DNA of 29,826 nt from a virus. Shown here piece after piece: positions 13,701-28,494 of the stretch (position 1 is the stretch's first letter; the number at the start of each line of letters is the position of its first letter). The notes under the pieces were generated by a model, which was given only the letters and a program-made list of their open reading frames with translations, was not told the DNA's origin and ran no database searches. The stretch spans positions 1 to 29,826 of the IMG/VR virus record IMGVR_UViG_3300044707_000521; one strand, 5' to 3'. Position numbers and translations under genes: made by a program.

Positions 13701-15134
13701 TTTATTCCTTCTAAGAATAGTTAAATGATTTTTGAATTCATCTTCTGGTGTTGTAACTATCTGTTCTGGTTTTTCCTTACTAACAAACTCTTTAAATCCT
13801 TCTATATCTTGTTTACCAGTAGCATTAACATATTCTTGAAACTTTTGTTGAGCTTGTTGTTTTTGTTGTAGAGTTATTTGGTTAGTTACTTCAGTTTTAC
13901 CATCAAATACTCCAACAACTCCATTAATAGAATCATTTAACTTAACTATCTTATCTTGATTGTTTTCTATTTCTGTATTACTTTCAAAAGCTTTTACTCC
14001 TGCTGCTGTAGATAAAGTTATATGTGGAAACTTATTTTTAGACAATGAATTTTCTACAATTAAAACATCAACCTTATCCGTAGTAAGCCTACCTACAATT
14101 TTAATATTTTTATTTTCCCCAATAGGTAAACTTGAAATATCAGAAGGTTTAAATTCTATAGTAGAATGATGAGAATAAACATTAGAATGTACAGGTTTAT
14201 ACTTATTTGTTATTTCATTAGTATTAAAAAATACAGCACTATATACAGGGTTTTTGATATTATCTTTAAATCCTAAAGCTTCATATACTTGATTAGCTAA
14301 TTCTGGATTAGATTCAAATAGTTCTTCTACTCCTGGTTTTACTTTTTCTACTGGTTCTGTAATAGGTTGAGTAGTTACAGAAGCTTCTTCTTTACGACTG
14401 TTTAATAATTGATCTTGTTCTTTAGATACATCTTCAGTTACTTTAACTTTAGCTCTTTCTTTCTTTTCTTTAGTTAGTTCTCCAACTTCTTTTTCAAAAA
14501 CGTTACCTAAAAGTCGATCTCCGGACATTACTTGAACTACGTTAGTATAAGTTTTACCAGCTACTGTTAAAGATTGTATAAGCCTAAGTGTTATATTATC
14601 ACTCTTAAGATCATTATCAGTAATAGGACTTACTGATCTATCTATTTTACTTTTATTTATAAAATCATACTGTCGACCATCTTTATCAGTAAATATAAAT
14701 ATTTCGGGAGGAGTTTTACGTGCAATAGACCCTTTAACTGTTTCTCCTTTATTAAGTTTTTCAGCTACTTTATCTTTTTTCTGTTGTCTTGTAGCTACAA
14801 TATTTTCTAATAGTACGTCCCCATTATTCTGATTTATACTTTCGATAATTATTTGAATAGCTGGAAGTTCTGAAGCTATATGTAAAAAAGTCTTGTAAAT
14901 ATCTCTACTAGATAACTCTACTAGGATTGGTATAGTTAAAGCCGTTAACTTTAATGAATTGTCTGGCGACATATTCTTACTAATCAATGAGTTATAAACT
15001 TCACTTAAAAAAGTATCTAATTTAAAAGCTTTATTATCATTAATCTCATCATTTAACTTTTTTGAAACGAGACTAGCTAATTTATTATTTAATTCCTTTT
15101 GAATATCATCAGGGAATACACACCATACAGCCAT
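4761..15134 (-). CDS. Virion RNA polymerase giant (YonO/crAss-type, DFDID) with 2H phosphoesterase and zincin domains
   Basis: This 3457-residue single-chain DNA-dependent RNA polymerase belongs to the crAss-phage virion type, which is injected with the genome to transcribe early genes. Domains in order: helical N-terminus (1-120); a low-complexity linker (about 245-265); the motif ELFESNPELANQVYEALGF; a 2H phosphoesterase-like domain (295-412, H323xT325 and H371xT373); a zincin (550-655, HEAWH at 567-571); and the polymerase core. In the core, RIPVQGP at 2092 and DFDID at 2131-2135 align with the RAPTLHR and NADFDGD signature of cellular beta-prime subunits. A long coiled coil follows (about 2150-2270), then MGGLGIGAIQNAANA and a helical region containing NGWVDVAKDAWVYD. 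The C-terminus has Thr/Gln-rich linkers. The phi14:2 homologue is about 2,200 residues, so this one carries large additions. The ATG at 15134 lies 6 bases after the upstream stop, with no Shine-Dalgarno sequence. The polymerase identity is strong; the timing and delivery are inferred from relatives. Confidence 0.95.
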   Translation of the reverse strand: MAVWCVFPDDIQKELNNKLASLVSKKLNDEINDNKAFKLDTFLSEVYNSLISKNMSPDNSLKLTALTIPILVELSSRDIYKTFLHIASELPAIQIIIESINQNNGDVLLENIVATRQQKKDKVAEKLNKGETVKGSIARKTPPEIFIFTDKDGRQYDFINKSKIDRSVSPITDNDLKSDNITLRLIQSLTVAGKTYTNVVQVMSGDRLLGNVFEKEVGELTKEKKERAKVKVTEDVSKEQDQLLNSRKEEASVTTQPITEPVEKVKPGVEELFESNPELANQVYEALGFKDNIKNPVYSAVFFNTNEITNKYKPVHSNVYSHHSTIEFKPSDISSLPIGENKNIKIVGRLTTDKVDVLIVENSLSKNKFPHITLSTAAGVKAFESNTEIENNQDKIVKLNDSINGVVGVFDGKTEVTNQITLQQKQQAQQKFQEYVNATGKQDIEGFKEFVSKEKPEQIVTTPEDEFKNHLTILRRNKNKYQKSLNEELGESKAKEAEKWFKNKEVQIQVIDNKTGKPKTVKTTLSKLWDLKVLFNAINIDNPHSIATFVDNQITLYKGSDFTDIYHEAWHGFTQSMLTFEQASDLYEELRKQKSTFVDYLGNTVRFNQASMLQLEEFLAEEFRKYAISDGKYKIEAPIRLTIFEKILNWFKAIFTGVTKADVILAPLSIPMVYEMYDKLYKGDLTEFTLRELSGGILFNKIVNNISNPTEQLFTTGEWEKIENIINSIISTTLYNVDLNVRNTFDELIDKIQKFKDQQTEEDLETLQNKLIEFIDTNDYAYIFDNPAEKLKFVTDIIEDKDNSKSHNPDKNFRFSYLKTTTGQNNVFDIVKNKIKKVLEAQLQKRAEAKTSEEIAKLDNNIELLEKVLLNYSDGPKTKLSTGEEVDNYIKGKNGVIPYYKNATTFLTYDELNPEDDELSQKGEKAGDKKPQAVSLENGLSPEIKSLLRGIMVYKDNKPKLDDFGLPQPQTLQTTLRNIFNVVSNSAGGDEIIRKLEIDSESNTLTKYTSKQVLNLLGNNESLNSEVQSIWTAFFTGFDKDKIRNVISKYTILENGFQHTSTDKTIANDTLLKKLKIDFEKQNDGNFIKTDNGTKVVDVKAIRQEYDFTKADKDKYQFLYDIGIKLSDNQQVREKLSKLTSFRFFWRDKFSKDGKLTFEQIWKDQGTIKKEILDIEIEYGKELPSMMIETATGNVMFINSDKSSVTTMVDVINSPDIKNITDYDSFKGGVGRFFNYQVYKNKKGNAILSSLFEQDGTRNTNFIKVNNNNGLQVLSGNEEFGYDTLSVTTLDALFSDLQTWIQNGKLKGPQPETKKTNLFIYPEQGVLVNGKINKHYFSPQTFITSSDTLFDNQAFKENLSKHVFTMIERELYRVLECSIVEKEKLTTSPLYQFIVQGKKRYSEVGQGFTDLKNMISENNQNKLKTLVIQNIEDAGSLFDYLSAYNSELLNNIEEDIFKYFQDKTDNFITRTELQAKDANLARFLDNDNSKYTTKINDLIRLFWINDFVNKFEIINLFYGDMAQYKSAMDFTKRDAGGTSTKLASRTDIGYQKYQENQKTNEKYINAYSNMFSNPTVPGLENYKGIDIQKAITNSAVDVNFFNSVILADAELKSYYFDQYKEYIVNKIKTDKKISQEAAEKEADNLLSAYTEMTEDDAQGWITLPAYKRISEGIGGKWTKEQDDLFNKILTGEVSTSISDFLEFFPIKKMQYWGPYANIDAGYSLIGFHKFSLLPLVPSTIGNNSNLRLLHDRMIEQGIDYVTVKSGSKIGNFAPVGKSSDGFYKGDITDRKSVFADPNFKFTVNKIFSAYFGEQVATNEYYKNTVTFSTQLKKLAEIGLYSDGAPVAFMPVSFGVRRTPEQVTKRLEAWENLSEDKKTTYTEYNLSKAYLEKIDQLIQRSTLNLREKYGLDENYQPIDGNVQKLIDRLKKDFKQYSATELEYFEVSSDLSISPNAQNIEKVINNIVDRNIIKAKLKGEALILAANTGFENYGGIKSQFTNPTEEQLEQYGDNDNLTSYTEVKDSKGKTIWIRAMKVKIALQGDFKKLLDHKSVKQLVKENPQLTRIQALNQLIKNEEWLKDNRELITMVGVRIPVQGPNSMEVMEVYEFLPENAGNMIIPPSSIVAKAGSDFDIDKLTVLMPSILKTIDSVKLTPFIERSTKKLSQLKTEIKDLTDGIEEVQNIFWNGLNTTQQKLLQSLHNERKTKIKALNDKIASSNIEEEKDQLENQKFEIILEYAQKEKEVASRIPSFKLALETRNKSIEELTNKKIELEEELASKGNEGAQNELMKSMIDIILRPDNFSSLILPNGTYLIKYLATDEKQGLAEIKSATPTNIFEYNFNEDVRIANSMAMGGLGIGAIQNAANAAFNKIGMYVQPITQYSRGRLQFNEHVHTLLFSQFNKKRVNEQVKVGEDKNRKIIREIKPFDAILLSSLNSEDLDIPEVLSQFINGWVDVAKDAWVYDINATRDTATALTFLIKAGVPLEEAVYFINQPIILEYLDYKNKFSGPNAKLYDGKAPSKKFWENKDRAREKLINKYSSMFRNQRNAQFMDPLYTEVINDNKNNKNFTDSAILKQRIEAERAKIKRDGKSYVPEYNQTDIDRLIHFFHIEDMSDGISKFTNLLNFDTKRQVSFYDVLKLKSKIETIEDKKFIPRGLWDQAVKDTVQTKYNPTELALNMFGKTLLSLRTNPVLLDYITSLMNDDIMLISGQDPTNYEYIIENTRFTPDEFYENFIDKLVPFVFQNILQSVNTQYDRSGETNYYKGYTKEENEKKFPIKETRKVKLGAFVKDGVIYIDKKILNFVYTNKLYTSKNIDKYNELTKLPIKLAGVESESVFSNYDQFEKFVIEREVLRSIYNTPESYQNDYEYKELLKDKKDPMVAYENFLVQRALFNTYNYYYMFQGQNSYAKRFENLPDLSSEDYPILTQLVLKESAGINNLAFISTINTPVEKDNITNQLSDLANPAIKKVDDQSLNEYISRFFSQFSIMAYLQGNYSKKTDLTFTVARDSKVMKLLEEPIKDLNKTLNNSVLNIYKQKFVDLNYRSNLTRYITKNWEITDSNSLRVMFNKERPQPVERFEAIVIDNPVGDNMYGEFNYVKGNLSKVGKDLTDSRLSKYQIIGGTTANNKTRVHIPIDQLDYQLFPNTKYSAKTVLFELWSDKQYIKLNTKEDLESFKNMVDSKIQAIKDYMGLGIVPLFTPIAQGFSNVIPSVTQAPTQSSTKEALNKERKEKLKQYEIISFQEKIDIVNQNLGKMGFAGLIDSPGIIFNFNDREPSTSFLREPIKKEGNNYRIIASRYNVLIDEGMNILATTNINTGKTYKYKDDEIGLSTIEIGSIPDNFELSETISSLFNENISYKQNKQKEINAEYDAKIDALGTIQSSTQPIVTTEVKPIVDTIYNKEGFNYLSSQIYENFGYINKGFDISEAPKEIILKFTPVTDQDVIDFINKCFIKP
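5013..5036 (-). repeat. EINAEYDA linker, copy in the RNA polymerase giant
   Basis: These 24 bases coding for EINAEYDA match 16254-16277 in the preceding cargo giant at 23 of 24 positions. The copy lies in the last 100 residues of the polymerase giant, just before a Ser/Thr/Gln-rich linker. Confidence 0.8.
8706..8861 (-). other. RNA polymerase double-psi beta-barrel catalytic segment (DFDID)
   Basis: The three aspartates D2131, D2133 and D2135 (bases 8744-8730) form the magnesium-binding loop. The 39 residues before it follow the pattern of the beta-prime subunit: RIPVQGP for RAPTLHR, then the strand EVYEFLPENAGNMIIPPSS, then IVAKAGSDFDIDKLTVLMPS for the NADFDGDQMAVHVPL region. The second position is DID rather than DGD, which is the form known in crAss-like phage polymerases. 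KIALQGDFKKLL, some 60 residues upstream, may belong to the partner barrel, but I cannot assign the catalytic lysines with confidence. Confidence 0.93.
13170..13487 (-). other. Zincin-like metalloprotease domain inside the virion RNA polymerase giant
   Basis: HEAWH lies at 13436-13422 (H567, E568, H571), in DFTDIYHEAWHGFTQSM. The likely third ligand is E617 in LEEFLAEEF, followed by a closing helix FEKILNWFKAIF. A short strand ATFVDNQITLYKG precedes the zinc helix. The layout matches the two zincin segments in the next gene. Possible roles are self-processing of the giant cargo proteins or cleavage of a host target. Neither can be told from sequence. Confidence 0.8.
13899..14252 (-). other. 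2H phosphoesterase-like domain inside the virion RNA polymerase giant
   Basis: Residues 295-412 carry the paired HxT signature of the 2H superfamily (RNA ligase/cyclic phosphodiesterase, LigT, Acb1). The copies are HSTI at 323-326 (bases 14168-14157) and HITL at 371-374 (bases 14024-14013), 48 residues apart. The pattern before the first (PVYSAVFFN, then VYSHHSTIEF) and around the second (VDVLIVENSLSKNKFPHITL, then AAGVKAFESN and GVVGVFDG) matches the small phage members called Swiss Army Knife RNA repair-like. Both histidines and both threonines are present, so the site looks intact. The substrate is unknown. Confidence 0.82.
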
Positions 15135-15140
15135 AACTAA

Positions 15141-18100
15141 TTAAGAATTTTTACAGTTTTCTGATACTATTTTTGTTATATCATCTAGGAGCGAAGATAC
15201 ATTTTTATCTTCAATTGTGATATCTTTAACATCATTATATAAATTTTTTAGTTCTTCAATCTCGGTTAGATTAATAGATATTCTATCTTCAACCTTTTGG
15301 ATCCTATCTTTTTGATTAATTAAAGTTTTTAAACTTTGCCAGGTTTTATAATCAATATAACTTTTTGTATTGAGGTATTCTAAAAATTTAGAAAATTCTT
15401 TTAGTGATGATTGTTTACCGGGAGCATCAACAATAGCATCTGTTAAGTTTTTTACTAAAACAGCTTTACTATTAGCAGGTAAAGGTTTATTTATTATTTT
15501 ATATTCAATACTGGTTACCTGATCTTCACTAGTAGAAGTTTTTACTACCGCTAATTTTACAGGAACACCACTGAATATCAAGTACTTAATAAAACTACTA
15601 TTAGGAGTATTAGGTAAAGTAAACATCTCATTACCCTGATTATCAACTATTTGTACTGATTGATCTTTTACTTGTAGATCTAAAGTACTACCTAATTCAA
15701 TATTGGATAATTGATCTGGTATAGAAGTATTCTCTTTTATAGTTGTGTTTTCTATAAATTCTTTATTATTAAATAAAGCTTTTTCAAGAGGATCTATAAT
15801 AGTAGTAGGGTCTTCGGGAAATATTATTTCAGTTTGTCCGGTAAATTGAGATAACTCTTTATTTAACTCTGTTAATAGGGTTTCTTCTTTACCGTAATCA
15901 GTTTTCCAGTTAGTGTTAGTTTCAAGATGTTTACTTAATTCTGATTTTACATTTTTTTGATTAACTCCGTCTTCTAATATTTGTCTTCCGTTATTTTCAA
16001 GAAATACAACGTAGGATCTGTTATCTTTTCTTTTATAAGCATAGAACTTATACCCCTCTACCTCACCTACAAATATAGCTTTTACTCTATATAGCTTTTC
16101 GTTTATTATAACATCTTTAGGTTCACCTTTTTTAGGAGTTATAACTTGAGAATCCATCTCAGCTTGTTCCTCATCAGATACTCTATACCCTTTGTTTATT
16201 GTATCTATAGTTTGTTTTTCATTAGTAGGCTTACCACCTTCTAAAGCTGCTAGTGCATCATACTCAGCATTAATTTCATTTGGTTGATACTTTAAAACTA
16301 TATCATCTACTCTTCCACCTTCCTCTTTTGAAACATATCCTATAGTTATATTACCATTTCCTAATCCAGCAGCACTGTTTTTATCAGTACTAATAGCAAT
16401 AGATTGTAATAATATAACAGCATCTTCTGGTAACTCATCTATAAATTCTTTTGAGTTTTGATCTAAGTTTTTATAAATACTTGAATTTATAAATTCTTGT
16501 TTTGTAACTTTTGGATAAGCCGTAGAACTTGATTTTCCATCAACTGTTGTTTCAAATGAATATTTAAAACCATTTTCATCAACCTTAGTTTTAACTGTTG
16601 TTTTTCTTGTTCTTCCTTTTGTATCTGTTGTCTCAAATTCAAGAGGGGTAATATTACCAAATAATGCTTCTTGTCTTCTTCTTTCTATATAAGCTTTAGC
16701 ATCTGTAGAAACAGGAGTAGTAGTTACCGCAGTTGGAGCTATACCAGCTATATTTAATACTTCCGCGTAATCTTCTTTAATAGATTTAGTAGGTTTTCTT
16801 TTTAAACCTATTGTGTATTTTTCAATAGTAGTCTTATCCTTATCTTCAGCTAGGTTAATACTTTTTAAATCTTTAGATACTATCGGATTTATAACACGGA
16901 TACCAGCTACCTTAATTTTTTTATTTTCAAGGTTTTGTTCTAATATCTCACTATAGGTACTTAACTGGAAAGCATGTTTAGACTCTTCTTTATAATCAGT
17001 TCTATAATTATTAACGCTTGTTTTTAAATCCCAAATTTCTAATTTACCATCTGGGTATATAGCTACAATATCGGCTTCACCTGTAATTGATAAACCTGAT
17101 ATATTACCCCACATTCTAGGTAAGTCTGTAACTATCAGTATGTTATTATCATTAGCATATTGTCTTATATCACTTAATATATAATAGTATTTACTTAAAA
17201 AGTCATCTGAATATTCTTGTTTACCAAATAGATCTCGTTCATCTTTAGACAGATCTTCGGTATCATTTAACATATTTTCTTGAATATTTCTAGCTACAGT
17301 TATAAACGATTCTCTACTTACAACGGTAGTATCATAAGACATAAAGTCCCTGAATATTCTATCTAAGTAAGTACCTCTTACAGTATACTCATTACCTTTA
17401 AAAGTATTTTGATCTAATTTACCAGATAAAATAGCGTCATATATTTCAGTACTTCTTAATGATCCAATACCTGTTGGTACAAGTTCTCCTTTTTCATTAG
17501 GCTCTAACTTAAATGTAAGCTTTAGATTATTCTTTAATTCTTCTTCAGTTGGGTTTAGAATAGGTTGAAGTTGAGCATTTACAGGATATCGTTTAGTTTT
17601 TACATCTTTAAATGTAGTATTAAGTGCTTCTAAAACTTCTTGTTGTTTAAGAGTTTTGTTAAATCCTATAGCTTGATTAGAATATTCTTCATCTCGTTTT
17701 TTATTAAACTCATCTATAGCTTGATAATCGGTAAATCCATCTACTACACCTTGAGCAAAATTATACTTTTCTACTAATTGAGTTTTAGCTTCTTTAGCTT
17801 TAGCTGGGAAATCTACAAAATCTATACTATTATTTATGATTCTACGCTTATCTCTAGGACTTAATTGATCTATTGTTTTTTGTTTCCAACCTAGTTTCCG
17901 TAGTTCCGCGTCAATATCTTTTGTATACTTAACTGTTATATAGTCCCCAGCTAATTCTTCTTGATCAGCTATATAATTATTGATAGCGTCGTTTACTTCT
18001 TCATCTTCAGGATTATCTTTAATATAACTAGCTATATCCTTACCGGGTCTTAGTTTAGAAAGCTTTTCATAAAGTTCCGGATAAAGATCCTCCATATCTT

Positions 18101-21100
18101 CAACATTAGTAATAATGTCGTCATAGGTTGGAACCTCTACTTTGGTTACTATATCTACTCCTAACCCATCAAATACTTTAGTAGACACAATATCAGCTAC
18201 TGTTTCTAGTAATGTATTATCTTCAGTTATATTAAAGCTTCTACTAATAACCTTTTTTATAAGCTCAATAAACATCTTAAAAGCTGATTGTTTTTGAGTA
18301 GCGGGAGTTTTAATTAATGATAATACTTTTTGAAAACCTGGATCAGATATTGAAGCTGCTGCAAAAGCTTCTCCAGAAGTCATTGCTGAATAAGAATTAA
18401 CAGAACCTATATTATTAGCTTTTCTAACATCTGCATATTTAGGATCTTCAAACCATTCTGTTACAATAGTTTGTAGGTTATCAATATCTTCTTTAAAGGT
18501 AGAATCTGAAGTATAAGCTTCTTTAGTAGTTAATTCCATTATAGCTTTACTTACTGAATACTCCATATTAACCATCGACCGATAATCAAAAGCAAAGTAT
18601 CTTAAATCTATAATCATATTACCGTCAGGATTAACAGTAATAGGAATTCCTTGATTTTCTCTAAATTTAACTTTATTACTCTTACCTCTATATTTCTTTT
18701 CTAATAGTCTGAATAGATTGAATAAATCATCCGTTATATATTCAGACATTATAAGCTTACTTAATACCTCACTTAATGGTAATTCTACATCGGCTCTATT
18801 TTTAAAATCAACTCCTAAGAATTCATAGAAATCGCGAAGAGTACGTTTATCTTCAGTAAAACGTTGTAATTCATTAAATCTATTAACAGGAGCTCCTGCT
18901 GTTTTACCTCTGAATACTTTCTTACCAGTTAGAGTAATGTCATTAAGTTCTTCATAAGATTCTATAATATCCATCGCTTTTTTATAAGCTACCGGATTAT
19001 CAAAAGGATCTACCTCTTCTAATTTAATATTAATATCCTTAAAGTTAGCTTGACCTGCTTCAGCTGGAACTAGGTAAAATGTAGGCATCCTTCCCTGAGC
19101 TAAATCTTCCATACCATCCGGATCTACAAAAACTCCAGCTTTAGAGAATAGCTCGTTAAGTAACTCATTATCAATTTCATTATTGAAGTATTTACTTAAA
19201 GCTTCTTTTAAATATGTCTGGCGATTATTATATATGTTTTTAAGAGCCTTTTCATGAATGTTAACTAGTTCAGTAAAATACTGAGGATTAGCTAAAACAT
19301 TAATGGCATTAGTTGTTTGATACTTATCTTGTACTAGTGCTGAATAATCTAAAACGCTGTTTGATATACTGTCTAATTTACTTTCATCTAAAACTTTACC
19401 GTTAGATTCAGCTACTGTTTTTAAATATTGGGTAAATTTAGTTTTAAAATCATCTTTAAGACTGTCTAAAGAAACTTCTTCTTTACCTTCTTTTTTACCC
19501 TCTTCATTTAATTGATAGGTTTGTTTATAGTCTTTTAGACTTTCTATAACCTCATCTAGCTCAAGTCTTTGTTTTTCTAATAGTTTAGCCGTAGCCTGGT
19601 CTTTAGCATCTCCATTTTTTAATATCTCAATACGATCATCTAAAACTTGAAGTTCTGGTACACTTGCAAAAGAACTGAACTTTGCTGGTATTTCAGAAAG
19701 TAGTAAAGTAATATCTGAAGCAGTAATACCTTCTAAACCAGATACTGATGACATTTGAGAATAAATACTCTGTAATCTATCAACTATATTATAAGCTTTA
19801 GCATGATTAAATACTACAAGTTTTTTAGCTCTTTTAAAAGCTTCTCTGGTTAGCGCATCGTTTCCATCATAAGAACCAAATTTTTCATCAAATTCTTTAT
19901 GAATCTTCTTCATTTGATTAATACTATTTAAACTTTTGGATATCTTAGATCTAATTTCTCCAGCTTGTTGACCTGTAGGGTTAGCTATACCTGTTGATCT
20001 TTCTAATTCTATATCGTCAAGTTTATTAATATCTTTTATCTGATTTTCTAATATACCTAACTTACCGTGTTCCATTAAGTAGTTTAGATGTAGAGCTACT
20101 GAATCAGCACTAATATCAGCTACAGCTTTATAGTTATCTCCGTAAATGTTATGTTTAGTAAGAGCTGTATCTAAATCGGCGTTTAGATCTCTTTGTTCTA
20201 TAGCGTTTTCATCAAGAGCTTTAATAAAAACATCGGGGTTATTATAAGCAACCGTTAAACTAGCTGCTAATTGATTAACTTGGTTAAGCTTATAAGCTTT
20301 TATTCTAGCTGCTTGTTCTTTCTTTTCAGTTATGTCTTTTCCAAATAATCCTTCTATTTTATAAGAATTGTCTGTTGCTAATTGTATCCCTTTAAATAAA
20401 CCGCTTTGTACTACATTTACTGGTCCACCCATTAAGAATCCCGATAAAAATACATCTAGTCCAGTATTACTTAGCATTTCTTCAGCTCCTTTAAAGGCAA
20501 TGCTTTTATACTTTTCCATACCACCTTTACTAGGATTATTGTATAAGTTAGAGTAATATTTCTCTACTCCAGCAGATACACCTTCTTGGTAAAGTTCTTG
20601 AGCACCTTCTCCAAAGTTAGCTGAAAGATATCTAAAACTACCAGGTCCTAAATTTTTAGGAAGTTGTTTCCAGAAATCTTTTTTTAGAACACTCTTTCCA
20701 TAAGCTTCAACTAATACAGCACCATCTTTTACTGTTTTCTTTAATCCGTAAGATTTTAACGAGTTACCCATTTCAGTAAGTAACATTGAAGATGGTCTAA
20801 CCATTTTATCTAATACTATCTTATTAGTATATAAAATAGCCGGAACATTTATCATACTAGTAAACTTACCAGCGTCTAAACCAGTACCATATATCTTATC
20901 TGCATCAGCACTATTTGGATCAGGTAATTTACCGTTTAACTTGTAATATTCATCTAATAAATTAGCCGATACTTTATTTTGAACAAATCCACCTTCTAAT
21001 GTAGCTTCATCTAAAGCTGCATTAATACCTCTAAAGTCTCTATAGAAAGAACCAAAACCTCTAGATAGTTTAGCCGCATCATCTATCTTATTATAACTTC

Positions 21101-22079
21101 TAAAAAAGTCCGCGCTGTATTCTAAAGGGTTTAAAAAGTTTAAAGTTCCTTTAGCTAACTTACCCGCGTTTTTATAAAATGCTGTAGCGTTTTCAATTGA
21201 TTTCAAGGACTTTACCATGTTCTTGATATCAGACATCTTATCTACAATTCCTAATAAGTTCTTTCCTACTTTAATTCCTCTAGTTACATTCATCGCTGTT
21301 CTACCAGCTGATAAACCTTGTAATCCAGGAATAAAAGATAAACCGAATAAAGCAGCTTCTTCAACCATAATCTCTCCCATAACTCCCATAGTATAGGCGC
21401 TATTACCTAATAGATTAACCGTAAAAGCACTAGCCCCACCTCTAGTTGATGAAGCTATACCCATATTGTAATCCATTTTTTCAGAATGTTCTAGATCACC
21501 TTCCATAGAAAAGTTTCCATAATTCTGGATAGTTCCTAAAAATCCATCTCCGGCTAGATTAAACCAAACTTTACTCATTCTAACAAAATCATCTTTCCAG
21601 GTAGTGTTAGCGTTATAAAAAGCTTCATTATCTCTAAATGGAGAAAATCCTAGTTTTTTATATTTAGGGTTTTTATAGTATCTATCAAAAAAAGCTCCGT
21701 ATTGAGTACCATTAAAATCAAAAGGTTTAGCTAATTGAAGAGGATCTTTAGCCCAGCTATTAATATCCCTACCATAGGATAATAAATTTTTTATTTTTTC
21801 ATTTTGGTTCAGTTGAAAGGTAGAAGATGGATCAGAACCCAGCATTGTATTTCCTGAATATAAATTTTGTAGATTAGGAATCCTATTAAGATCATGTTTA
21901 TTAGCTTCATTATTTCTTATTACGTCTGGAAGATTGATATCATTTATTGCATCAACGTAACTATCGCTTTGAGTTTTAACGTAATTTAAAGCAGCCGGTA
22001 GTTTTTCATTAAAAAACTTATTCCAATCTCCATCAAAAGATGAACTACCTAAATCGTTAACAGGATTATCTCTAAACAT
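15141..22079 (-). CDS. Giant virion cargo-type protein with degenerate zincin and PD-(D/E)XK nuclease domains
   Basis: This 2312-residue protein resembles the large cargo proteins encoded just before the polymerase in crAss-like phages. Its N-terminal 200 residues carry a familiar pattern (SPFRDNEAFYN, DDFVRMSKVWFNLAGDGF). Hydrophobic Gly-rich segments at about 217-262 and 534-562 could touch membranes during ejection. Long helical regions follow. A zincin-like segment at 1150-1278 has lost its HExxH motif. A RecB-like nuclease core occupies about 1562-1733 (D1670, D1684, K1686, Q1705, Y1709). The tail has Thr/Pro-rich linkers, including VTTTPVSTDAK and EINAEYDA; the latter recurs in the polymerase giant. 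The ATG at 22079 follows the upstream stop by 20 AT-rich bases, without Shine-Dalgarno. The stop lies 6 bases before the polymerase start. Co-packaging with the polymerase is inferred from gene order and from relatives. Confidence 0.92.
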   Translation of the reverse strand: MFRDNPVNDLGSSSFDGDWNKFFNEKLPAALNYVKTQSDSYVDAINDINLPDVIRNNEANKHDLNRIPNLQNLYSGNTMLGSDPSSTFQLNQNEKIKNLLSYGRDINSWAKDPLQLAKPFDFNGTQYGAFFDRYYKNPKYKKLGFSPFRDNEAFYNANTTWKDDFVRMSKVWFNLAGDGFLGTIQNYGNFSMEGDLEHSEKMDYNMGIASSTRGGASAFTVNLLGNSAYTMGVMGEIMVEEAALFGLSFIPGLQGLSAGRTAMNVTRGIKVGKNLLGIVDKMSDIKNMVKSLKSIENATAFYKNAGKLAKGTLNFLNPLEYSADFFRSYNKIDDAAKLSRGFGSFYRDFRGINAALDEATLEGGFVQNKVSANLLDEYYKLNGKLPDPNSADADKIYGTGLDAGKFTSMINVPAILYTNKIVLDKMVRPSSMLLTEMGNSLKSYGLKKTVKDGAVLVEAYGKSVLKKDFWKQLPKNLGPGSFRYLSANFGEGAQELYQEGVSAGVEKYYSNLYNNPSKGGMEKYKSIAFKGAEEMLSNTGLDVFLSGFLMGGPVNVVQSGLFKGIQLATDNSYKIEGLFGKDITEKKEQAARIKAYKLNQVNQLAASLTVAYNNPDVFIKALDENAIEQRDLNADLDTALTKHNIYGDNYKAVADISADSVALHLNYLMEHGKLGILENQIKDINKLDDIELERSTGIANPTGQQAGEIRSKISKSLNSINQMKKIHKEFDEKFGSYDGNDALTREAFKRAKKLVVFNHAKAYNIVDRLQSIYSQMSSVSGLEGITASDITLLLSEIPAKFSSFASVPELQVLDDRIEILKNGDAKDQATAKLLEKQRLELDEVIESLKDYKQTYQLNEEGKKEGKEEVSLDSLKDDFKTKFTQYLKTVAESNGKVLDESKLDSISNSVLDYSALVQDKYQTTNAINVLANPQYFTELVNIHEKALKNIYNNRQTYLKEALSKYFNNEIDNELLNELFSKAGVFVDPDGMEDLAQGRMPTFYLVPAEAGQANFKDINIKLEEVDPFDNPVAYKKAMDIIESYEELNDITLTGKKVFRGKTAGAPVNRFNELQRFTEDKRTLRDFYEFLGVDFKNRADVELPLSEVLSKLIMSEYITDDLFNLFRLLEKKYRGKSNKVKFRENQGIPITVNPDGNMIIDLRYFAFDYRSMVNMEYSVSKAIMELTTKEAYTSDSTFKEDIDNLQTIVTEWFEDPKYADVRKANNIGSVNSYSAMTSGEAFAAASISDPGFQKVLSLIKTPATQKQSAFKMFIELIKKVISRSFNITEDNTLLETVADIVSTKVFDGLGVDIVTKVEVPTYDDIITNVEDMEDLYPELYEKLSKLRPGKDIASYIKDNPEDEEVNDAINNYIADQEELAGDYITVKYTKDIDAELRKLGWKQKTIDQLSPRDKRRIINNSIDFVDFPAKAKEAKTQLVEKYNFAQGVVDGFTDYQAIDEFNKKRDEEYSNQAIGFNKTLKQQEVLEALNTTFKDVKTKRYPVNAQLQPILNPTEEELKNNLKLTFKLEPNEKGELVPTGIGSLRSTEIYDAILSGKLDQNTFKGNEYTVRGTYLDRIFRDFMSYDTTVVSRESFITVARNIQENMLNDTEDLSKDERDLFGKQEYSDDFLSKYYYILSDIRQYANDNNILIVTDLPRMWGNISGLSITGEADIVAIYPDGKLEIWDLKTSVNNYRTDYKEESKHAFQLSTYSEILEQNLENKKIKVAGIRVINPIVSKDLKSINLAEDKDKTTIEKYTIGLKRKPTKSIKEDYAEVLNIAGIAPTAVTTTPVSTDAKAYIERRRQEALFGNITPLEFETTDTKGRTRKTTVKTKVDENGFKYSFETTVDGKSSSTAYPKVTKQEFINSSIYKNLDQNSKEFIDELPEDAVILLQSIAISTDKNSAAGLGNGNITIGYVSKEEGGRVDDIVLKYQPNEINAEYDALAALEGGKPTNEKQTIDTINKGYRVSDEEQAEMDSQVITPKKGEPKDVIINEKLYRVKAIFVGEVEGYKFYAYKRKDNRSYVVFLENNGRQILEDGVNQKNVKSELSKHLETNTNWKTDYGKEETLLTELNKELSQFTGQTEIIFPEDPTTIIDPLEKALFNNKEFIENTTIKENTSIPDQLSNIELGSTLDLQVKDQSVQIVDNQGNEMFTLPNTPNSSFIKYLIFSGVPVKLAVVKTSTSEDQVTSIEYKIINKPLPANSKAVLVKNLTDAIVDAPGKQSSLKEFSKFLEYLNTKSYIDYKTWQSLKTLINQKDRIQKVEDRISINLTEIEELKNLYNDVKDITIEDKNVSSLLDDITKIVSENCKNS
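16254..16277 (-). repeat. EINAEYDA linker, copy in the cargo giant
   Basis: This is the partner of 5013-5036, differing at one base. It is followed by LAALEGGKP, while the polymerase copy is followed by KIDALG, so the similarity fades quickly outside the shared unit. Confidence 0.8.
16881..17396 (-). other. PD-(D/E)XK (RecB/Cas4-like) nuclease domain in the cargo giant
   Basis: The core reads TGEADIVAIY, with D1670 at 17072-17070, then KLEIWDLKTSV with D1684 and K1686 at 17030-17022, then HAFQLSTYSEIL with Q1705 and Y1709. This is the order and spacing of motifs II, III and QxxxY in RecB-family nucleases. An N-terminal helix VRGTYLDRIFRDFM fits motif I. Every catalytic residue is present, so the domain should be an active DNA nuclease, or possibly an RNA nuclease. 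Limits are approximate. Confidence 0.85.
18246..18632 (-). other. Degenerate zincin-like domain (metal motif lost) in the cargo giant
   Basis: Residues 1150-1278 keep the layout of the intact zincins downstream: a strand NMIIDLRYF, a helix where HExxHALT would be expected but SKAIMELT is found (S1177 to T1184), a later GEAFAAASISDPGF with E1237 at the third-ligand position, and a closing amphipathic helix SAFKMFIELIKKVI. Both histidines and the catalytic glutamate are missing. I read it as a structural relic or regulatory pseudo-protease. The assignment rests on pattern only. Confidence 0.55.
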
Positions 22080-22099: not shown

Positions 22100-25000
22100 T
22101 TATCTACGTCTACTAGAACGGCTATAGGTATTAATATTCATAGCAGTAATAGCTTGACCAATTTCATTCTTATATTTATTTACTATAAGATCAAGTGCGA
22201 CTCCGGAAGCAGGATCAAAAATACTAGCTCCTCCACCAAATTCTTCTAAACTTGATTTTCTCCATGTAGCATCTGGTTGATACATATTAACATATCCTGT
22301 AACTAATCCTTGATCAAATTGATTTTTCTTAATAGTAAAATTGTAATCAGGTTCTTCAGAACTTATACTCTTATTGGTAATATTAATAGGAATGTTAAGG
22401 TTATACATTTTATCGTATATGGTTTCTTGAGTAATATTATTATAGTAATTATCCGCTAGATCTCTAGGCATAGACACAGTAACTATATTATGATCTTCTT
22501 TAAGATTTCCATTTTCAAAATAACTCCAATATTTTCCAGGGTTAGTCGCGGTTCCCATATTCTTTCTCATATAATCCTCATTAAGCTCAATTGTATAAGC
22601 TACCTGATTAGCATCATTATAAGCTATATTATACCCAGAAAACTTTACTATAGGTCTTTCTCTATCATCATAATCCCATGAACTTTGATAAGCTGTTTCT
22701 AAATCATTTAAAATAACTAGGGCAGCATTTTCTTTAAATGTATCAGCGGGACCTAGTTTATTTATATTACCTTGTTCAGTACCTAAAAAAGCTCCTACTT
22801 TATCCTTACCTTTTACTTTATTAAAGTTATCTATAACTGTTATAGTAGATTGTAAACCTTCTGAATTAATATCTGCAAAGTCTACCATTGTACTTGATCC
22901 ATTAGCATAACGGTGAGTACCTTGAGGATAAGCTTTTAATCTTCCTGAAGAATACTGATCTTTAAATCCCTTTACATAATCTTGATACTGATCTCTAAGT
23001 TCTCCTTTATCTTGTTTACCAGTAAAAAAGTTTTGAGTTTCTCTAATACCTCTTACAATAGCTGGTGCTACTAAACCTCCAACTAAGGGTAGAAAATCCC
23101 AACCTTTTGTTCTATTCCGAAAGCGTTCTGCAGCATTTGTTTTATCCATGTATTTATTATACATAGTATTAACAAAGGTTTCTTCATCAACTATTTTTCC
23201 ATTCTTATCAAATAATGCGTTAAGAGCGTCTTGTTTATATTGTCTCTGTACATTATTATTTGCTATTTTGCTTTCTAGATTGTTAATTTTTAAATTTGCC
23301 CATTCTTCATAAGAACGAGGTTCACCAGATGCAATTTCTTCTGCTCGATAATCATCTCTTTTATTTTGAGTACCTTTTTTATAATCTGCTATTTCAGATT
23401 CTAATTTGCTATTATCAAAGTCAGAAGCTATTCTATTTATTAAATCTGTCTTAACTGTTTTAATACCTTCTTGATAATTTTTAAGATCTGCGTTATATAT
23501 TTGTTTATTAACATCATACATAGCATACATACCATCATAATCGCTTTTTCTTTGAGAATTCAGAATGTTTGTATTATATAAACTATTAACTTCTGTCTTT
23601 ATTCTTTCTATTAATTTACCATCAGAATCAGCATAATTATTTATAATAGATCCGAAAGCTGCAGAATTCGCAATGTTAAAGTCTTTGTCTATATAACCTT
23701 TATTTACATACTCATCATACTTAGCTTGTCCTCCTATAGAATTAATAAACGATTGTTTAGCTTTTGATTTAACCGCATCACTAGTTTGTGGATTATCTAA
23801 TAAGGTTTTTAGATCATTGTAGTAATTAAATAAATATACACCTCTAACACCAGCGTATGATTGAGCTTCTTTATCAAGAGCTTCTCCTGCCGATTCAAAT
23901 AGATTTTTAATTTTTGCAGTTGAACCAGGAGCTCCTTCAATAGGTGTCCAATCACTACCAGCCATAAAGCTATCTGATCCTAATTTTTTACCAACATCTC
24001 TTCCTCCTTTTCCTCCTTTTCCTGTAATTAGATCAAATGCTGCTTCATACTTTTTAAGTTCCAGATCGTATTCAAACTTCTTTTTCATCTCTTCCATTTG
24101 AAGACCGTGTTTGAACCTTGCTTCAGAATAAGGATCCGCTTTTATGTCAATCTCGTTATTTAATTGAGCATAATTAAGTGCAGCATTATATAAATCTTGT
24201 CCTAATAAGATAGAGCTCATAGCATTATCTACTCTATTTCTTAACGTATTTACGTCAGCATCTAATAAGGTAGACCGATCTACTAAACCTCCTGTAGCAT
24301 TTGTATTCTCTAAAGATGTATTTAAAACTTCTTCATCCTGGGTTAGTGATAAGTAATAGTCATATACATTTTTATTAGCTTCAGGATCTAAATCTTTATT
24401 TTCTTCAATAATAGTTTTATCGGTTTTTACCCCATTTAATAGTTCTTCAGTTTGCGCTTTCTTTTGAAGAATTATGTTATTGATCTCTTCTAACTTATTA
24501 TTTAAATAGAATTTTTCAGCAGCATCTTCAGAACCATACTTTTCTGCATTTGAATAAGAAAAGTTTTTTCTATCCAGATAAGCTAATGTTTTATAATAAT
24601 CTTGAACATTAGGATCTTGTCCTAGTACACTATTAAAGTAATCGTTTAAAGGAGCTACTAAAGCTTGGCCACCTTTAGTGGTTACTATATATTTACCATC
24701 CGGAGACCAGTTTACAGATTGAACATTAAAACCCATGTCCTTAGCCATTTTAAAAGCTTTATCTGTAACGTTTACATAAGGAGTATAATAAGCATTACCC
24801 ATTTGCATAGCCTCTTCATCAGAAGCATTAGCAAAGTCCATTCTCATAAAGTTTAAAGCCTGTACTCCACCTTCCCACCATTTACCTCCACACTTTTCTT
24901 CATTTGTACAGTTTTTAAAAGATTCTGACTTTTGGTATTCATCTCTTAATACCTTAGTCCAAGCCATGTCTTTTAAAATATTCTGATCGTTAATCAACGG

Positions 25001-25291
25001 TTGAAATACTTGATAAGCGGCATCTTGATTTTGTCTAAGAGATAAATCAACGCCGGATAACTTTTGTATTTCATTATTTATGTTATTAAAAAAGTCTTCC
25101 CTTCTTTCAATATTAATATCTCTAGTTAGAGGAGAGTTTAGCAGTTGTCCATATATCTTACTTATTCTATCGTAACCGGCTTGATACTGAGCTTGTTTAG
25201 TATCTAATACACCTTTATAAAAATTAAGGTTTGGTTGAAACGGTTGAATTTCGGGTATATAATCGGTCACGCCTTGAAGATAGGTACTCAT
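22100..25291 (-). CDS. Virion/cargo-type structural protein of crAss-like phage
   Basis: This 1063-residue protein begins with STYLQGVTDYIPEIQPFQPN and a helical region, a beginning I associate with conserved crAss-like virion proteins near the polymerase genes. It is mostly helical and charged. There is a Lys/Gly-rich spot (GKGGKGGRDVGKK, near residue 430). One hydrophobic stretch, FLPLVGGLVAPAIVRGI (about 731-750), could insert into a membrane. The C-terminus is very basic and serine/arginine-rich (YSRSSRRR). There is no enzyme motif. Translation probably depends on the homing endonuclease upstream, whose stop lies one base before this ATG, with no Shine-Dalgarno sequence. The start is supported by the match to the family beginning and by its copy at the endonuclease start. 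Role in the virion or ejection is inferred. Confidence 0.88.
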   Translation of the reverse strand: MSTYLQGVTDYIPEIQPFQPNLNFYKGVLDTKQAQYQAGYDRISKIYGQLLNSPLTRDINIERREDFFNNINNEIQKLSGVDLSLRQNQDAAYQVFQPLINDQNILKDMAWTKVLRDEYQKSESFKNCTNEEKCGGKWWEGGVQALNFMRMDFANASDEEAMQMGNAYYTPYVNVTDKAFKMAKDMGFNVQSVNWSPDGKYIVTTKGGQALVAPLNDYFNSVLGQDPNVQDYYKTLAYLDRKNFSYSNAEKYGSEDAAEKFYLNNKLEEINNIILQKKAQTEELLNGVKTDKTIIEENKDLDPEANKNVYDYYLSLTQDEEVLNTSLENTNATGGLVDRSTLLDADVNTLRNRVDNAMSSILLGQDLYNAALNYAQLNNEIDIKADPYSEARFKHGLQMEEMKKKFEYDLELKKYEAAFDLITGKGGKGGRDVGKKLGSDSFMAGSDWTPIEGAPGSTAKIKNLFESAGEALDKEAQSYAGVRGVYLFNYYNDLKTLLDNPQTSDAVKSKAKQSFINSIGGQAKYDEYVNKGYIDKDFNIANSAAFGSIINNYADSDGKLIERIKTEVNSLYNTNILNSQRKSDYDGMYAMYDVNKQIYNADLKNYQEGIKTVKTDLINRIASDFDNSKLESEIADYKKGTQNKRDDYRAEEIASGEPRSYEEWANLKINNLESKIANNNVQRQYKQDALNALFDKNGKIVDEETFVNTMYNKYMDKTNAAERFRNRTKGWDFLPLVGGLVAPAIVRGIRETQNFFTGKQDKGELRDQYQDYVKGFKDQYSSGRLKAYPQGTHRYANGSSTMVDFADINSEGLQSTITVIDNFNKVKGKDKVGAFLGTEQGNINKLGPADTFKENAALVILNDLETAYQSSWDYDDRERPIVKFSGYNIAYNDANQVAYTIELNEDYMRKNMGTATNPGKYWSYFENGNLKEDHNIVTVSMPRDLADNYYNNITQETIYDKMYNLNIPINITNKSISSEEPDYNFTIKKNQFDQGLVTGYVNMYQPDATWRKSSLEEFGGGASIFDPASGVALDLIVNKYKNEIGQAITAMNINTYSRSSRRR
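25271..25291 (-). repeat. Downstream copy of the 21-bp start-of-gene repeat flanking the endonuclease
   Basis: The first seven codons of the 1063-aa gene (MSTYLQG) match the first seven codons of the endonuclease gene (MATYLQG) at 25914-25934, with 17 of 21 bases identical. The two copies are 643 bp apart and bracket the endonuclease body. The identical core is TACCTATCT followed by CAAGG. Confidence 0.85.
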
Positions 25292-25292
25292 A

Positions 25293-25934
25293 CTATAAAT
25301 ATTTTAAATTAGTTTTATTAGTTCTAGTACCTAAAAGGTATTTAGATAATCTTGCTTTTGGTATATTATGTAATTGAGCAGCATAATTAAGAGATTCATA
25401 TATCTGCCCTGTTATAGTATCAATAACTTTTTTTCTTTTTGGTGCATTAACAATATTAAAATCAACTGTTTTTAATTTTTCTCTTGCAATTGCTAAATTA
25501 GTTTTACATAATTCTGATGAGTTATATACTTTACCAGCTTCAATACATGCCTGAGAAGGTCTTTTACCTTTATTAGCTTGTCTCAATTTCTCTCTTGTTT
25601 CTTTTGAGTGTATTGAGCAGCCGTTTGGATCAGTAGGTTTTAAATTATAACCAATTGATTTATTTAAACAATCCAATGTTGTAACCCAAAAATGTTCACG
25701 CATATGTAAATCTTCTATATTACATAACTCATGTGTTTCAAAAATAAACATGCTTTCCCCATATTTATTCCAAGATTTTTGTAAATAACTATTTTTATGC
25801 ATATTTTTTCTTAAATCATACAAATGACCATTAACTCTTGTTCTTATATTAGAGGCACAACCAATGTATATTTTATTATTTACCCTATTGGTAATTTTAT
25901 ATATACCTGGTTTTCCTTGTAGATAGGTAGCCAT
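25293..25934 (-). CDS. GIY-YIG homing endonuclease with NUMOD motifs, fused to a copy of the next gene's N-terminus
   Basis: This 213-residue site-specific DNA endonuclease has GIY at 10-12, YIG at 23-25, a probable catalytic arginine at R31 or R33, and the metal-binding glutamate E80 in MREHFW. DNA-binding modules follow: a NUMOD3-like segment (HSKETREKLRQANKGKRP, about 108-126) and a NUMOD1-like helix-turn-helix (VIDTITGQIYESLNYAAQL to LSKYLLGT, about 168-200). Homing endonucleases of this type usually start right at the GIY strand. Here six residues ATYLQG precede it, nearly the same as STYLQG at the start of the structural gene immediately downstream. It sits inside a virion gene row, one base from the next ATG. 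It is a mobile, selfish gene, probably unrelated to virion function. The call is firm; the insertion route is inferred. Confidence 0.95.
   Translation of the reverse strand: MATYLQGKPGIYKITNRVNNKIYIGCASNIRTRVNGHLYDLRKNMHKNSYLQKSWNKYGESMFIFETHELCNIEDLHMREHFWVTTLDCLNKSIGYNLKPTDPNGCSIHSKETREKLRQANKGKRPSQACIEAGKVYNSSELCKTNLAIAREKLKTVDFNIVNAPKRKKVIDTITGQIYESLNYAAQLHNIPKARLSKYLLGTRTNKTNLKYL
25914..25934 (-). repeat. Upstream copy of the 21-bp start-of-gene repeat flanking the endonuclease
   Basis: This is the partner of the repeat at 25271-25291. It contains the ATG and codons 2-7 of the endonuclease. Differences from the other copy fall at bases 4, 5, 15 and 21 of the repeat, so the pair is either old or came from different alleles of the target gene. 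Confidence 0.85.
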
Positions 25935-26016
25935 ATGAATAATTTTGTTCTAAATTATGAATTATATTTTACTTAATAAAATTAAGTTTTATATTTAATT
26001 TTAAGTTTTAAAATTA
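25935..26016 (-). promoter_or_regulatory. AT-only gap ahead of the endonuclease; possible leader or promoter region
   Basis: These 82 bases are almost purely A and T and form the only gap longer than 20 bp in the window. They hold a 7-bp inverted repeat (ACTTAAT, 3-base loop, ATTAAGT at 25971-25987) and two copies of AAAACTTAA on the minus strand. I see no Shine-Dalgarno sequence and no clear Bacteroides -7 or -33 element. The gap may be the native leader of the structural gene row or a scar of the endonuclease insertion. Confidence 0.35.
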
Positions 26017-28494
26017 CTATCCGTTATAATAACCCATCATTTGTTGATAAGCGTCCATTGGATTAGCATATGTATCAGGAACATTTTGACCAGATACATA
26101 TTTCCATAAAATGTTATCATCTATTTCAGGATATATTCCTTTTAGTCTGTTTAGTTCTCTTAGAGAATCTTCTTGATCATAAGAAGAAGGAGTTACTTTT
26201 TCTCCTCTGCTAAAATATACCTGACCAGTTACAGGATCTACTTGATAGTTAGGATATAACGCATTCATCGCAGCAGTTTCTTGAGCACCTGTAAGACCTT
26301 GATTAAACGCTTTTCTAATGTTTCGTTTAGTCATACGCTTAGCATTATCATACTGTTGATTAAGAACAGTCATTTGATCATCAAATCTCTGTCTAGATTG
26401 TAGATTAGCCATTTGTTCTTGACTATTCATTTGTTTCTGAGCCATCTCAAACTGATTAGCTATACCAACATTTTGATTATGTACTCCTGATAAATAATCT
26501 ACGGCACTTTTCATACCAGCTCCAGCTAATTGAGAAGCTCTTGATGAATAAGCTTGTGGACCAGCAAAAGTTCCTAAACCTTGATTTGTAATAGCGGATT
26601 GTTCAGCTATAGCGGCTAAACCTCTTTCTGGTGATACATAAGTAGGAGATAACTCTGGTAGGTTTACTGTATATAAGTTAGGATAGTATTTGTTAATACC
26701 CGCCCACTCATCTACAGCTCCTTGTAAGTCAACTACGTTTTGAGTCCACCATTCTGGTCTACTAACTCCTGATACATATTCAGGAGACTGATAATCTACA
26801 GGTTCTATAGCATCTTCGTTTTTTTCATCTACAGCAGGTTCTTCTTCATAATCTGATTTAGCAAAGATACCTTGTCTATTAGTAGTGTTCCCAAATATAG
26901 TATCTACCGGGGATATTTTATTAGTACGTTTATCTGGTTCATCTCCTTTAGCATAATCAAATCCTAATTGAAAATTATCAGCTAGATACTTGAATTCTGG
27001 TTTACCAGCTGCTCCATAAGTACCCCAATAAGCAGCTTGAGCCATTGCTATTTGATTATTAGTTAATGGCTCAAATCCTAATTTATCCGCAGCATTATAA
27101 TATGTCTTATTTTTAGATTTATCCCAGTCTTCACTATTAAGATCTATATCGCTTCCTGCTAACATATATACTTGTTTTTGATGTTCTAACAAGTTATTTA
27201 TAACATCCTCAGCATCTTCAGCTAGAAGCTTTTTCTTTGTTCCTGAATCTAGATTACTTTTTTCAATCTCGGATTTGTAATTGTTATAAACCTCGTCTCT
27301 TAATTTTTCATCATTATTAAATATATAATCCAGCTTTTCATAAGACTGGGTTAGTTTACCTAAATCTTGTTTACCCTTGTATTGAGTTCTAGGGATTACG
27401 TTACCCTTTATTTTTTTATATGATCCGTCTGAATAATTTACAAATACAGATTTACCAGGATTATCCTTTTGAGCGTTACTTATGATTAATTCTAGTTGAT
27501 AGGGATCATCAATAAAATCAACAATAATATCACCTTTTATAGGACCACCTCCTTGTTTTTTAGGTAAAGACATTCTAACAGAACCGCCATTTTTGTAGCT
27601 TCCCATTCTAGTCATCATGTTTCTATAAGCTAGATCCCTTAATTGAGATTGAGCTGAATTAGGAGTTTGTAAACTTTTAGAAAAATCTGGAGTGTATATT
27701 TGTTTATTTAATTTGTCTAAACCTGTTACACGTCCTACATAATCTAAAAATTGTTCTGTTAAACCTTGTTGTGGAGCAGTACCTTTATGAACTATAGGTT
27801 TTTGATAAGAATTGGTATAATTTAATCCGTTTTGAGCAGTAGGCATTTCAGTATTCTCCATATCATATTCTTCGTTAGATTGTTGAATATTGGATAATTC
27901 GTTTTGATCTACCGGTAATATAGTAGAAGGATCAATACCAACACTATATAAATATGGATAAGCTAAACTAGGAATTCCATCTGGAAATCCTTTCATAGAT
28001 TCCTGTACAAGAGCTAGTTGACCTAATTTACTTGTATAATTCTTAATCATAAGTTCAGCTGTATCTTTTTCTAGTTTTGTAGAATCAGGACTAGCTAATA
28101 CCTTAACATATTCATTAATATTATACTGTTTAGATAACTCTGCTGGGGTATATCCTTTTTTAGAACTATCTCCACCTTTACCAAAAAGCTTTAATATTTC
28201 AGGATCTTTTATTTTCAGCTTAGTTTTAAAATCTGAAAATATAAAAGAATCATCTGGAAGGTTTAATGGTGTACCTCCTTGAGCATGTCTTTTTCCACCT
28301 ATCCCGTAAAAGTTTAACATTCCACCTTTACCCGGCATAGCTACTGTTTCATTCTTTTCAGCTTCTACATTAGCATTTTCCCTATCTATGGGACCTAATG
28401 ATTTTCTAACCGATGTCTTAGGTTTAGGTTGTGTAGCGTTATAATTACCTGCTTGAGGAAATGTATACGCGTTTATAGTTCCTTTCTTTCTCAT
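26017..28494 (-). CDS. Virion-type structural protein of crAss-like phage
   Basis: This 825-residue protein has no enzyme motif. Near residues 60-95 it has GIGGKRHAQGGTPLNLPDDS followed by FIFSDFKTKLKIKDPEILKLFG, a segment I associate with virion proteins of crAss-like and related Bacteroidota phages. A Gly-rich cassette (SYKNGGSVRMSLPKKQGGGP) sits near residue 305. The C-terminal 220 residues are helical and rich in Gln, Asn and Met (QFEMAQKQMNSQEQMANLQ), ending in VDPVTGQVYFSRGEKV, as in internal or tail-associated virion proteins. It starts 4 bases after the upstream stop and lacks a Shine-Dalgarno sequence. It ends with TAG, followed by the 82-base AT gap. Which virion part it forms (cargo, muzzle or tail) cannot be decided here. 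Confidence 0.88.
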   Translation of the reverse strand: MRKKGTINAYTFPQAGNYNATQPKPKTSVRKSLGPIDRENANVEAEKNETVAMPGKGGMLNFYGIGGKRHAQGGTPLNLPDDSFIFSDFKTKLKIKDPEILKLFGKGGDSSKKGYTPAELSKQYNINEYVKVLASPDSTKLEKDTAELMIKNYTSKLGQLALVQESMKGFPDGIPSLAYPYLYSVGIDPSTILPVDQNELSNIQQSNEEYDMENTEMPTAQNGLNYTNSYQKPIVHKGTAPQQGLTEQFLDYVGRVTGLDKLNKQIYTPDFSKSLQTPNSAQSQLRDLAYRNMMTRMGSYKNGGSVRMSLPKKQGGGPIKGDIIVDFIDDPYQLELIISNAQKDNPGKSVFVNYSDGSYKKIKGNVIPRTQYKGKQDLGKLTQSYEKLDYIFNNDEKLRDEVYNNYKSEIEKSNLDSGTKKKLLAEDAEDVINNLLEHQKQVYMLAGSDIDLNSEDWDKSKNKTYYNAADKLGFEPLTNNQIAMAQAAYWGTYGAAGKPEFKYLADNFQLGFDYAKGDEPDKRTNKISPVDTIFGNTTNRQGIFAKSDYEEEPAVDEKNEDAIEPVDYQSPEYVSGVSRPEWWTQNVVDLQGAVDEWAGINKYYPNLYTVNLPELSPTYVSPERGLAAIAEQSAITNQGLGTFAGPQAYSSRASQLAGAGMKSAVDYLSGVHNQNVGIANQFEMAQKQMNSQEQMANLQSRQRFDDQMTVLNQQYDNAKRMTKRNIRKAFNQGLTGAQETAAMNALYPNYQVDPVTGQVYFSRGEKVTPSSYDQEDSLRELNRLKGIYPEIDDNILWKYVSGQNVPDTYANPMDAYQQMMGYYNG

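Follow-up and report, generated by a model that had tools for sequence, protein, structure and literature searches.

Fungal mitochondria harbor mobile ORFs, described in atp6 of Allomyces, in atp6, atp9, cox2 and nad3 of Glomus, and in atp9 of Rhizopus, in which an endonuclease ORF lying within a protein gene brings along a substitute piece of that gene (PMC3630166). In Glomus atp6, the native copy differs from that of a relative only synonymously whereas the substitute has diverged, and the displaced native piece stays adjacent (PMC3630166). The substitute in these mitochondrial elements is the 3′ end of the gene, encoding the C terminus, and has often been argued to be foreign and acquired by horizontal gene transfer (PMC3630166). 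The intron-less seg and mob endonucleases of phage T4, of which seg are GIY-YIG enzymes, home during co-infection, and several of them use upstream host promoters; they are intergenic, with cleavage sites hundreds to thousands of base pairs off (PMC2988022). PhiPA3 gp210 is an HNH endonuclease within an intron, aimed at a virion RNA polymerase gene, and PhiKZ gp178 that has been synonymously recoded in the laboratory escapes it, which is experimental proof that recoding can rescue (PMC11620839). In HomeR and toxin-antidote drives, engineered with CRISPR in flies, a nuclease homes into an essential gene together with a recoded, uncleavable rescue fragment (PMC7968924).

The element considered here lies in a 29,826-nt stretch of viral DNA (IMG/VR record IMGVR_UViG_3300044707_000521, positions 1 to 29,826; hereafter the window), where a GIY-YIG homing endonuclease (HE) gene occupies the start of a phage gene. 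By analogy, it is the 5′ mirror image, in phages, of the fungal mitochondrial mobile ORFs: it too carries a substitute end of the gene that it invades, but at the 5′ rather than the 3′ end, where about 8 codons are supplied and the host's own start codon and first 6-7 codons are put to use. A further difference is that the change does not extend beyond the likely cut site, which is itself inferred. Like the T4 seg enzymes, this is an intron-less GIY-YIG endonuclease of a phage, but it lies inside the frame of its target. PhiPA3 gp210 resembles the proposal made below in its choice of target, whereas the recoding there was man-made and here is natural and linked to the HE. The layout also resembles that of HomeR, but belongs to a natural element of a phage, whose endonuclease is a protein. 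A literature search that left most subscription journals uncovered turned up no phage example of a recoded 5′ end.

Layout of the locus and its endonuclease

The locus runs along the minus strand, where an upstream gene (stop at 26017) is followed by an 82-bp leader (25935-26016), the HE gene (25293-25934, 213 aa), a single nucleotide, and a gene of 1063 aa (22100-25291). The HE ORF (25934-25293) opens with ATGGCTACCTATCTACAAGGA, encoding MATYLQG, and the next ORF (25291-22100), 1 nt after the HE stop, opens with ATGAGTACCTATCTTCAAGGC, encoding MSTYLQG. An earlier note on this DNA, made from the sequence alone, had singled out this repeat, and its figures withstood recounting: the two starts are identical at 17 of 21 bases, stand 643 bp apart, and lie below a leader of 82 bp. 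At the base composition of the window, the chance of at least 14 matches among the 18 bases after the ATG is 3.5e-5. A duplicated start is common to all 19 distinct HE-containing alleles among the matches listed, and no repeat of the next gene's start is evident at 14 other GIY-YIG ORFs from related or unrelated phage loci.

The HE matches Pfam GIY-YIG (6.1e-07) and the homing endonucleases of PHROG 314 (4.2e-34), and gives a profile match to the catalytic domain of I-TevI (PDB 1MK0; 5.9e-14). Its catalytic domain comprises residues 8-99 (25638-25913), with GIY at residues 10-12 and YIG at residues 23-25, and R33, E80 and N97 align to catalytic residues of I-TevI. G10, I11, Y12, Y23, G25, R33, E80 and N97 are invariant in 11 aligned HE homologues, residue 24 being I or V, and judged from this alignment the catalytic residues are intact. 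The C-terminal domain (residues 125-213; 25296-25562) is probably DNA-binding; it matches the I-TevI DNA-binding domain (1i3j) weakly (E=0.06), and residues 108-126 give a sub-threshold match to NUMOD3.

I-TevI (PDB 1MK0/1LN0) has the catalytic fold and catalytic residues seen in this HE but is intron-encoded, whereas this HE has no intron. An endonuclease encoded in a group I or group II intron was rejected here since no intron RNA matched Rfam in positions 24900-26400 of the window or in the HE-containing loci L129, L069, L127 and L162, and since coding sequence abuts the HE ORF directly on both sides. An intein was rejected as well, because the HE closes with a stop codon and the target restarts from its own ATG, leaving no continuous frame. 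Intergenic insertion of the T4 type does not apply either, as the HE sits after target codon 6-7.

Occupied and empty alleles at one junction

Searching IMG/VR with a degenerate DNA pattern, designed on the conserved start of the target and encoding M[A/S/T]TYLQGVT(D/E), retrieved 113 stretches, most of them without the endonuclease. Further scans brought the set to at least 124 distinct IMG/VR alleles (at least 19 occupied by the HE and at least 105 others), all compared at one junction; occupied and empty alleles share one precise site. The sampling hinges on the conserved start, and one pattern match among genome contigs (L172) was discarded as an unrelated chance match. The sources are metagenomic assemblies, and the layout recurs in many independent metagenomes. 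In the HE-free members of close pairs, the same leader runs straight into ATGGCAACGTA.TTACAAGG (MATYLQGVTDYIP); in HE-free alleles, the leader is A/T-rich and is followed by ATG-GCA-ACG-TAT-TTA-CAA-GG. This native start, ATGGCAACGTATTTACAAGGAGTCACAGAT, is the proposed HE target, for which there are no cleavage data.

The homologous occupied and empty alleles bear out the proposal of the earlier note that the HE was inserted within the start of the structural gene, so that the original start now opens the HE. When relatives without the endonuclease are compared at the junction, the leader is continuous with codons 1-6/7 exactly where predicted, and the lack of continuity that would have refuted the proposal is not seen. 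Such continuity is found in the occupied/empty pairs L129/L033, L069/L124, L127/L041, L036/L130, L162/L062, L003/L202 and L158/L195, and the close pairs come from different metagenomes. In L069, L127, L129, L158, L159 and L162, the leader is identical to that of the empty sisters at 30 of the 30 bases next to the ATG. L129 and L033 agree in the leader next to the ATG and in the following 21 nt (codons 1-7), after which L129 continues in the HE frame. Its displaced gene restarts with ATGGCCACGTATCTCCAGGGTGTCACAGAT, where 7 of 21 bases in codons 2-8 are changed relative to L033, all synonymously, while the two gene bodies diverge by 2% over 300 nt from codon 19 on. The pairs L069/L124, L127/L041 and L036/L130 repeat this arrangement with native identity through codon 6. 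Insertion after codon 7, as first suggested, is therefore right for L129 and probably for the window (21 nt native), but not for most alleles, which are native through codon 6 (18 nt). The suggestion that the duplicated start serves the displaced gene agrees with the frame being restored at the new ATG; it had not foreseen that this copy is systematically recoded and travels with the HE, nor that recoded starts also occur in HE-free alleles.

The start of the HE copies even host-specific codon choice (ATGGCTACGTATCTACAA in L127, as in L041), and on these comparisons the first HE codons are the resident phage's own start. A similar arrangement might be expected if the HE had been inserted in the leader just before the ATG, in the manner of T4, and its N terminus resembled the target start or converged on it by itself. 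If the HE had entered before the ATG and captured 18-21 bp afterwards, the layout would even be identical, and the window alone cannot separate the two. The close pairs make this course of events hardly credible, since the HE copy equals the HE-free allele down to host-specific codons (L127/L041, L129/L033) and it is the gene copy that is altered. The subtype at residue 6 is mirrored too: the HE of L192 opens with MATYLPG, as do the HE-free alleles L180, L186 and L191.

For the window itself, the matches listed include no close relative without the HE, the nearest being 32% diverged over 300 nt, and its reading for this reason rests on homologous alleles. L175, the HE-free allele nearest to it by gene body among the matches listed, begins with ATGGCTACCTATATACAAGGA, which agrees with the HE start at 20 of 21 positions; the displaced codons 2-8 of the window agree with L175 at 14 of 21 positions and differ at 7. 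Read through the junction comparisons, the present HE N terminus (25914-25934, MATYLQG) represents native codons 1-7 of the target, and the leader now 5′ of the endonuclease is that of the invaded gene, as it follows the host gene body in related alleles. Codons 1-8 of the displaced gene (ATGAGTACCTATCTTCAAGGCGTG; 25268-25291) are recoded by comparison with other alleles and are inferred to be carried by the element.

Recoding of the displaced start

Close pairs were defined by the nearest HE-free allele among the matches listed, with a body divergence below 20%. Across all 13 such pairs, codons 2-6 of the HE show a mean of 1.0 differences in 15 positions from the HE-free allele, against 5.8 in 15 for displaced codons 2-6 (Wilcoxon p=2.4e-4). 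Native identity ends after codon 6 in the nine closest pairs, where recoding is maximal at codons 5-6 and near background by codon 9; amino acid changes in codons 2-8 are confined to residues 2, 5 and 6, the remaining changes being mostly synonymous. Host identity returns from about codon 9 of the displaced gene, and the HE stop codon lies -4 to +2 nt from the new target ATG. Recoding is lighter in L003/L004 (3 of 7 codons). Few matched control pairs of low divergence are available among HE-free alleles, and in some of them the differences reach 6 of 21 bases (for example, L043 vs L087), which implies hidden recombination among HE-free alleles too.

In the absence of cleavage data, the recoding pattern suggests an HE cut site near the insertion. 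That the start repeat marks the recognition site of the enzyme is consistent with the peak at codons 5-6 but has not been demonstrated. Recoding is to be expected if the nuclease cuts here, because an unaltered duplicate start would recreate the cut site. It might instead serve only to prevent recombination between direct repeats, or represent passenger divergence from the start of a donor phage, without any part in escape from cleavage. A donor start that was simply carried along would likewise differ from that of the host, and the fungal cases have been explained as foreign gene ends (PMC3630166). In the nine closest pairs, however, the changes are most frequent at codons 5-6, next to the insertion, and have faded by codon 9, and the class A start ATGAGT occurs in only one of 72 distinct HE-free alleles of the first set (L120), the wider set adding at least two (L179, L185); this rarity makes an ordinary donor start unlikely. 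An origin unrelated to cleavage is thus considered improbable while keeping a real claim to attention, and escape from cleavage is the preferred reading.

The displaced starts fall into several classes: MSTYLQG, to which the window belongs, a synonymous MATYLQG, MATYLS/ISG, MATYLAG (L169) and MATYLPG (L192). At least three HE-free alleles combine a native leader with a recoded-like start, namely L120, L210 (whose sisters L056/L064 are native) and L185. Their starts resemble class A and class C displaced starts, and they probably record loss of the HE or represent resistant alleles. In L159 (nt 417-446) and L160, a class C HE opens with ATGAGTACATATAT, which is the start of the HE-free L185 and is recoded in a class-A-like manner (compare L158 and L195). 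This is suggestive, and no more, of a second HE having entered an allele already recoded by an earlier one. Several HE variants may compete for one conserved N-terminal codon block, each with a recoded, self-resistant start, so that past invasions leave immunising starts that are later overcome (L159/L160); this idea is tentative, and its chances are put at slightly below even.

Two further alleles have unusual starts. The target start of L087, ATGGCAACATATCTCCAGGGCGTT, is native in its first half and class-A-like in its second, and could have arisen by recombination between the two repeats with loss of an HE. In L055, the ORF at 5305 joins the target start MATYLQGVTD in frame to LLKRVSGLDLSL and lacks several dozen codons that its relatives have, through either an internal deletion or an assembly artefact.

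Chimaerism and mobility

Among 18 occupied alleles, the leader follows the body of the target gene (Mantel r=0.72, p=0.0004), whereas displaced codons 2-8 do not (r=0.07, p=0.26). The latter track the C-terminal domain of the HE (r=0.44, p=0.0002), also when the target body is taken into account (partial r=0.42, p=0.001), and a smaller allele set agrees with these correlations. On the strength of this tracking, the leader and the HE start are assigned to the phage, and the HE body and the recoded start to the element. The correlation between the recoded tract and the HE C terminus could reflect physical adjacency rather than function.

HE presence requires 11 changes on the target tree, at least 10 of them on strongly supported branches; occupied alleles are scattered, and most have an HE-free sister. 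HE class B (L129, L036, L061) is monophyletic, whereas its three hosts lie apart on the target tree. In 13 of 13 pairs, synonymous divergence is lower for the HE (pS 0.22-0.47) than for the target (pS 0.53-0.74), and the HE dN/dS is 0.16-0.50. As estimated from these rates, the HE has spread recently and is under selection for function. Horizontal spread is supported both by the conflict between HE and target trees and by HE synonymous divergence below that of the target.

Patchiness could also result if the HE were ancestral at the site and had been lost many times, without homing. Trees count changes and not their directions, and the HE-free alleles with recoded starts suggest that loss does occur. 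Against repeated loss as the general cause, nearly all HE-free starts are native, so that each loss would need to have re-created the codons of the host exactly; moreover, the HE shows clearly less synonymous divergence than the target when both are compared over the same pairs, and the two trees disagree. Ancestral presence is therefore judged very improbable, and homing into empty alleles is retained.

Proposed mechanism

The account that we consider very probable is that of a mobile, intron-less GIY-YIG HE that homes into codons 6-7 of its target and brings with it a recoded rescue start that ought to withstand its own nuclease, both cleavage and resistance being inferred. Insofar as aligned alleles can establish them, these points are established: the insertion precisely follows codon 6-7, the HE has taken over the native start, the target frame is restored, recoding is centred on the insertion, and the element has spread horizontally.

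Homing would begin with the HE cutting a co-infecting HE-free genome at or near target codons 5-8. Repair of the break, as inferred from the junctions, would then copy the HE together with the recoded tract next to it, one crossover falling within or upstream of codons 1-6 and the other at about codon 9 or beyond. In the product, as the sequences of the occupied alleles show, the recipient leader and codons 1-6/7 start the HE frame and a new ATG restarts the target, the new start encoding nearly the same N-terminal peptide with other codons. The recoding would stop the rescued copy from recreating the cut site, and may also weaken a direct repeat that could delete the HE. Translation of the target may be coupled to the HE stop, an inference from the gap of -4 to +2 nt. 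Occasional loss of the HE would leave HE-free alleles with a recoded and presumably resistant start, as may be the case for L120, L210 and L185.

The close occupied and empty alleles show an intron-less HE invading a reading frame without destroying the gene, a start being borrowed and a recoded one returned. If cleavage resistance is true, the element would provide a precedent in nature for the recoded rescue used in synthetic gene drives, and would supply many natural alleles and apparent relics for the co-evolution of drive, rescue and resistance. Essentiality of the target gene is assumed in this parallel, with no data to support it. As a consequence of the insertion layout, gene callers can be expected to find duplicated starts before the probable cargo-protein gene of these phages. 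The related GIY-YIG enzymes, with their predicted target sites, are offered as a set.

The target gene and its neighbourhood

The displaced gene (22100-25291, minus strand) lies two genes upstream of a 3457-aa ORF (4761-15134) that contains a DFDID motif (8730-8744, minus strand). This motif, typical of crAss-like virion RNA polymerases, presumably places the window in a crAss-like block of virion-protein genes. Membership of Crassvirales is no more than suggested by the motif, with no sequence match to any named crassviral protein to accompany it. PhicrAss001 has its cargo proteins, gp45/gp46, ahead of gp47-gp50, which are associated with the polymerase (PMC10172136). Because the position of the target upstream of the DFDID ORF parallels this order, its product is probably a crassviral virion cargo protein, by position only and without a sequence match to a named family.

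The first residues of the target are almost invariant, while the family is otherwise 20-32% identical to the window protein. As a single-protein query, the 1063-aa protein found nothing, because the family is too diverged; comparison with PDB and PHROG yielded no name, and its AlphaFold model is poor (pLDDT 61). Phage GenBank records contained no relative of the target, of its upstream neighbour or of the 2312-aa downstream ORF. No major capsid protein, terminase or portal was identified within the 29.8 kb of the window; among related contigs, the longest measure about 110-136 kb.

The location near virion RNA polymerase genes raises the question of whether the HE is a domesticated regulator, or a competition weapon that harms co-infecting relatives, rather than purely selfish; PhiPA3 gp210 does cut the virion RNA polymerase gene of a co-infecting phage (PMC11620839). 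The patchy distribution and low synonymous divergence of the HE fit ongoing homing instead, and such a role is regarded as unlikely, although it would be compatible with the homing model and does not exclude it.

Other features of the region are of note. The giant 3457-aa ORF with the DFDID polymerase motif (4761-15134, minus strand) has no PHROG match. The 2312-aa ORF (15141-22079, minus strand) has no Pfam match and gives weak matches to phage nuclease PHROGs at about residues 1660-1725. An ORF of at least 1585 aa (1-4755, minus strand) runs off the left end of the window and is possibly another virion polymerase-associated protein. Elsewhere, an ATPase-like gene with a DELKEF/EELKGF start motif has another GIY-YIG gene within it (L218) or 4-12 nt ahead of it (L219, L226); in these three phages it constitutes a further recurrent homing place, without a duplicated start.
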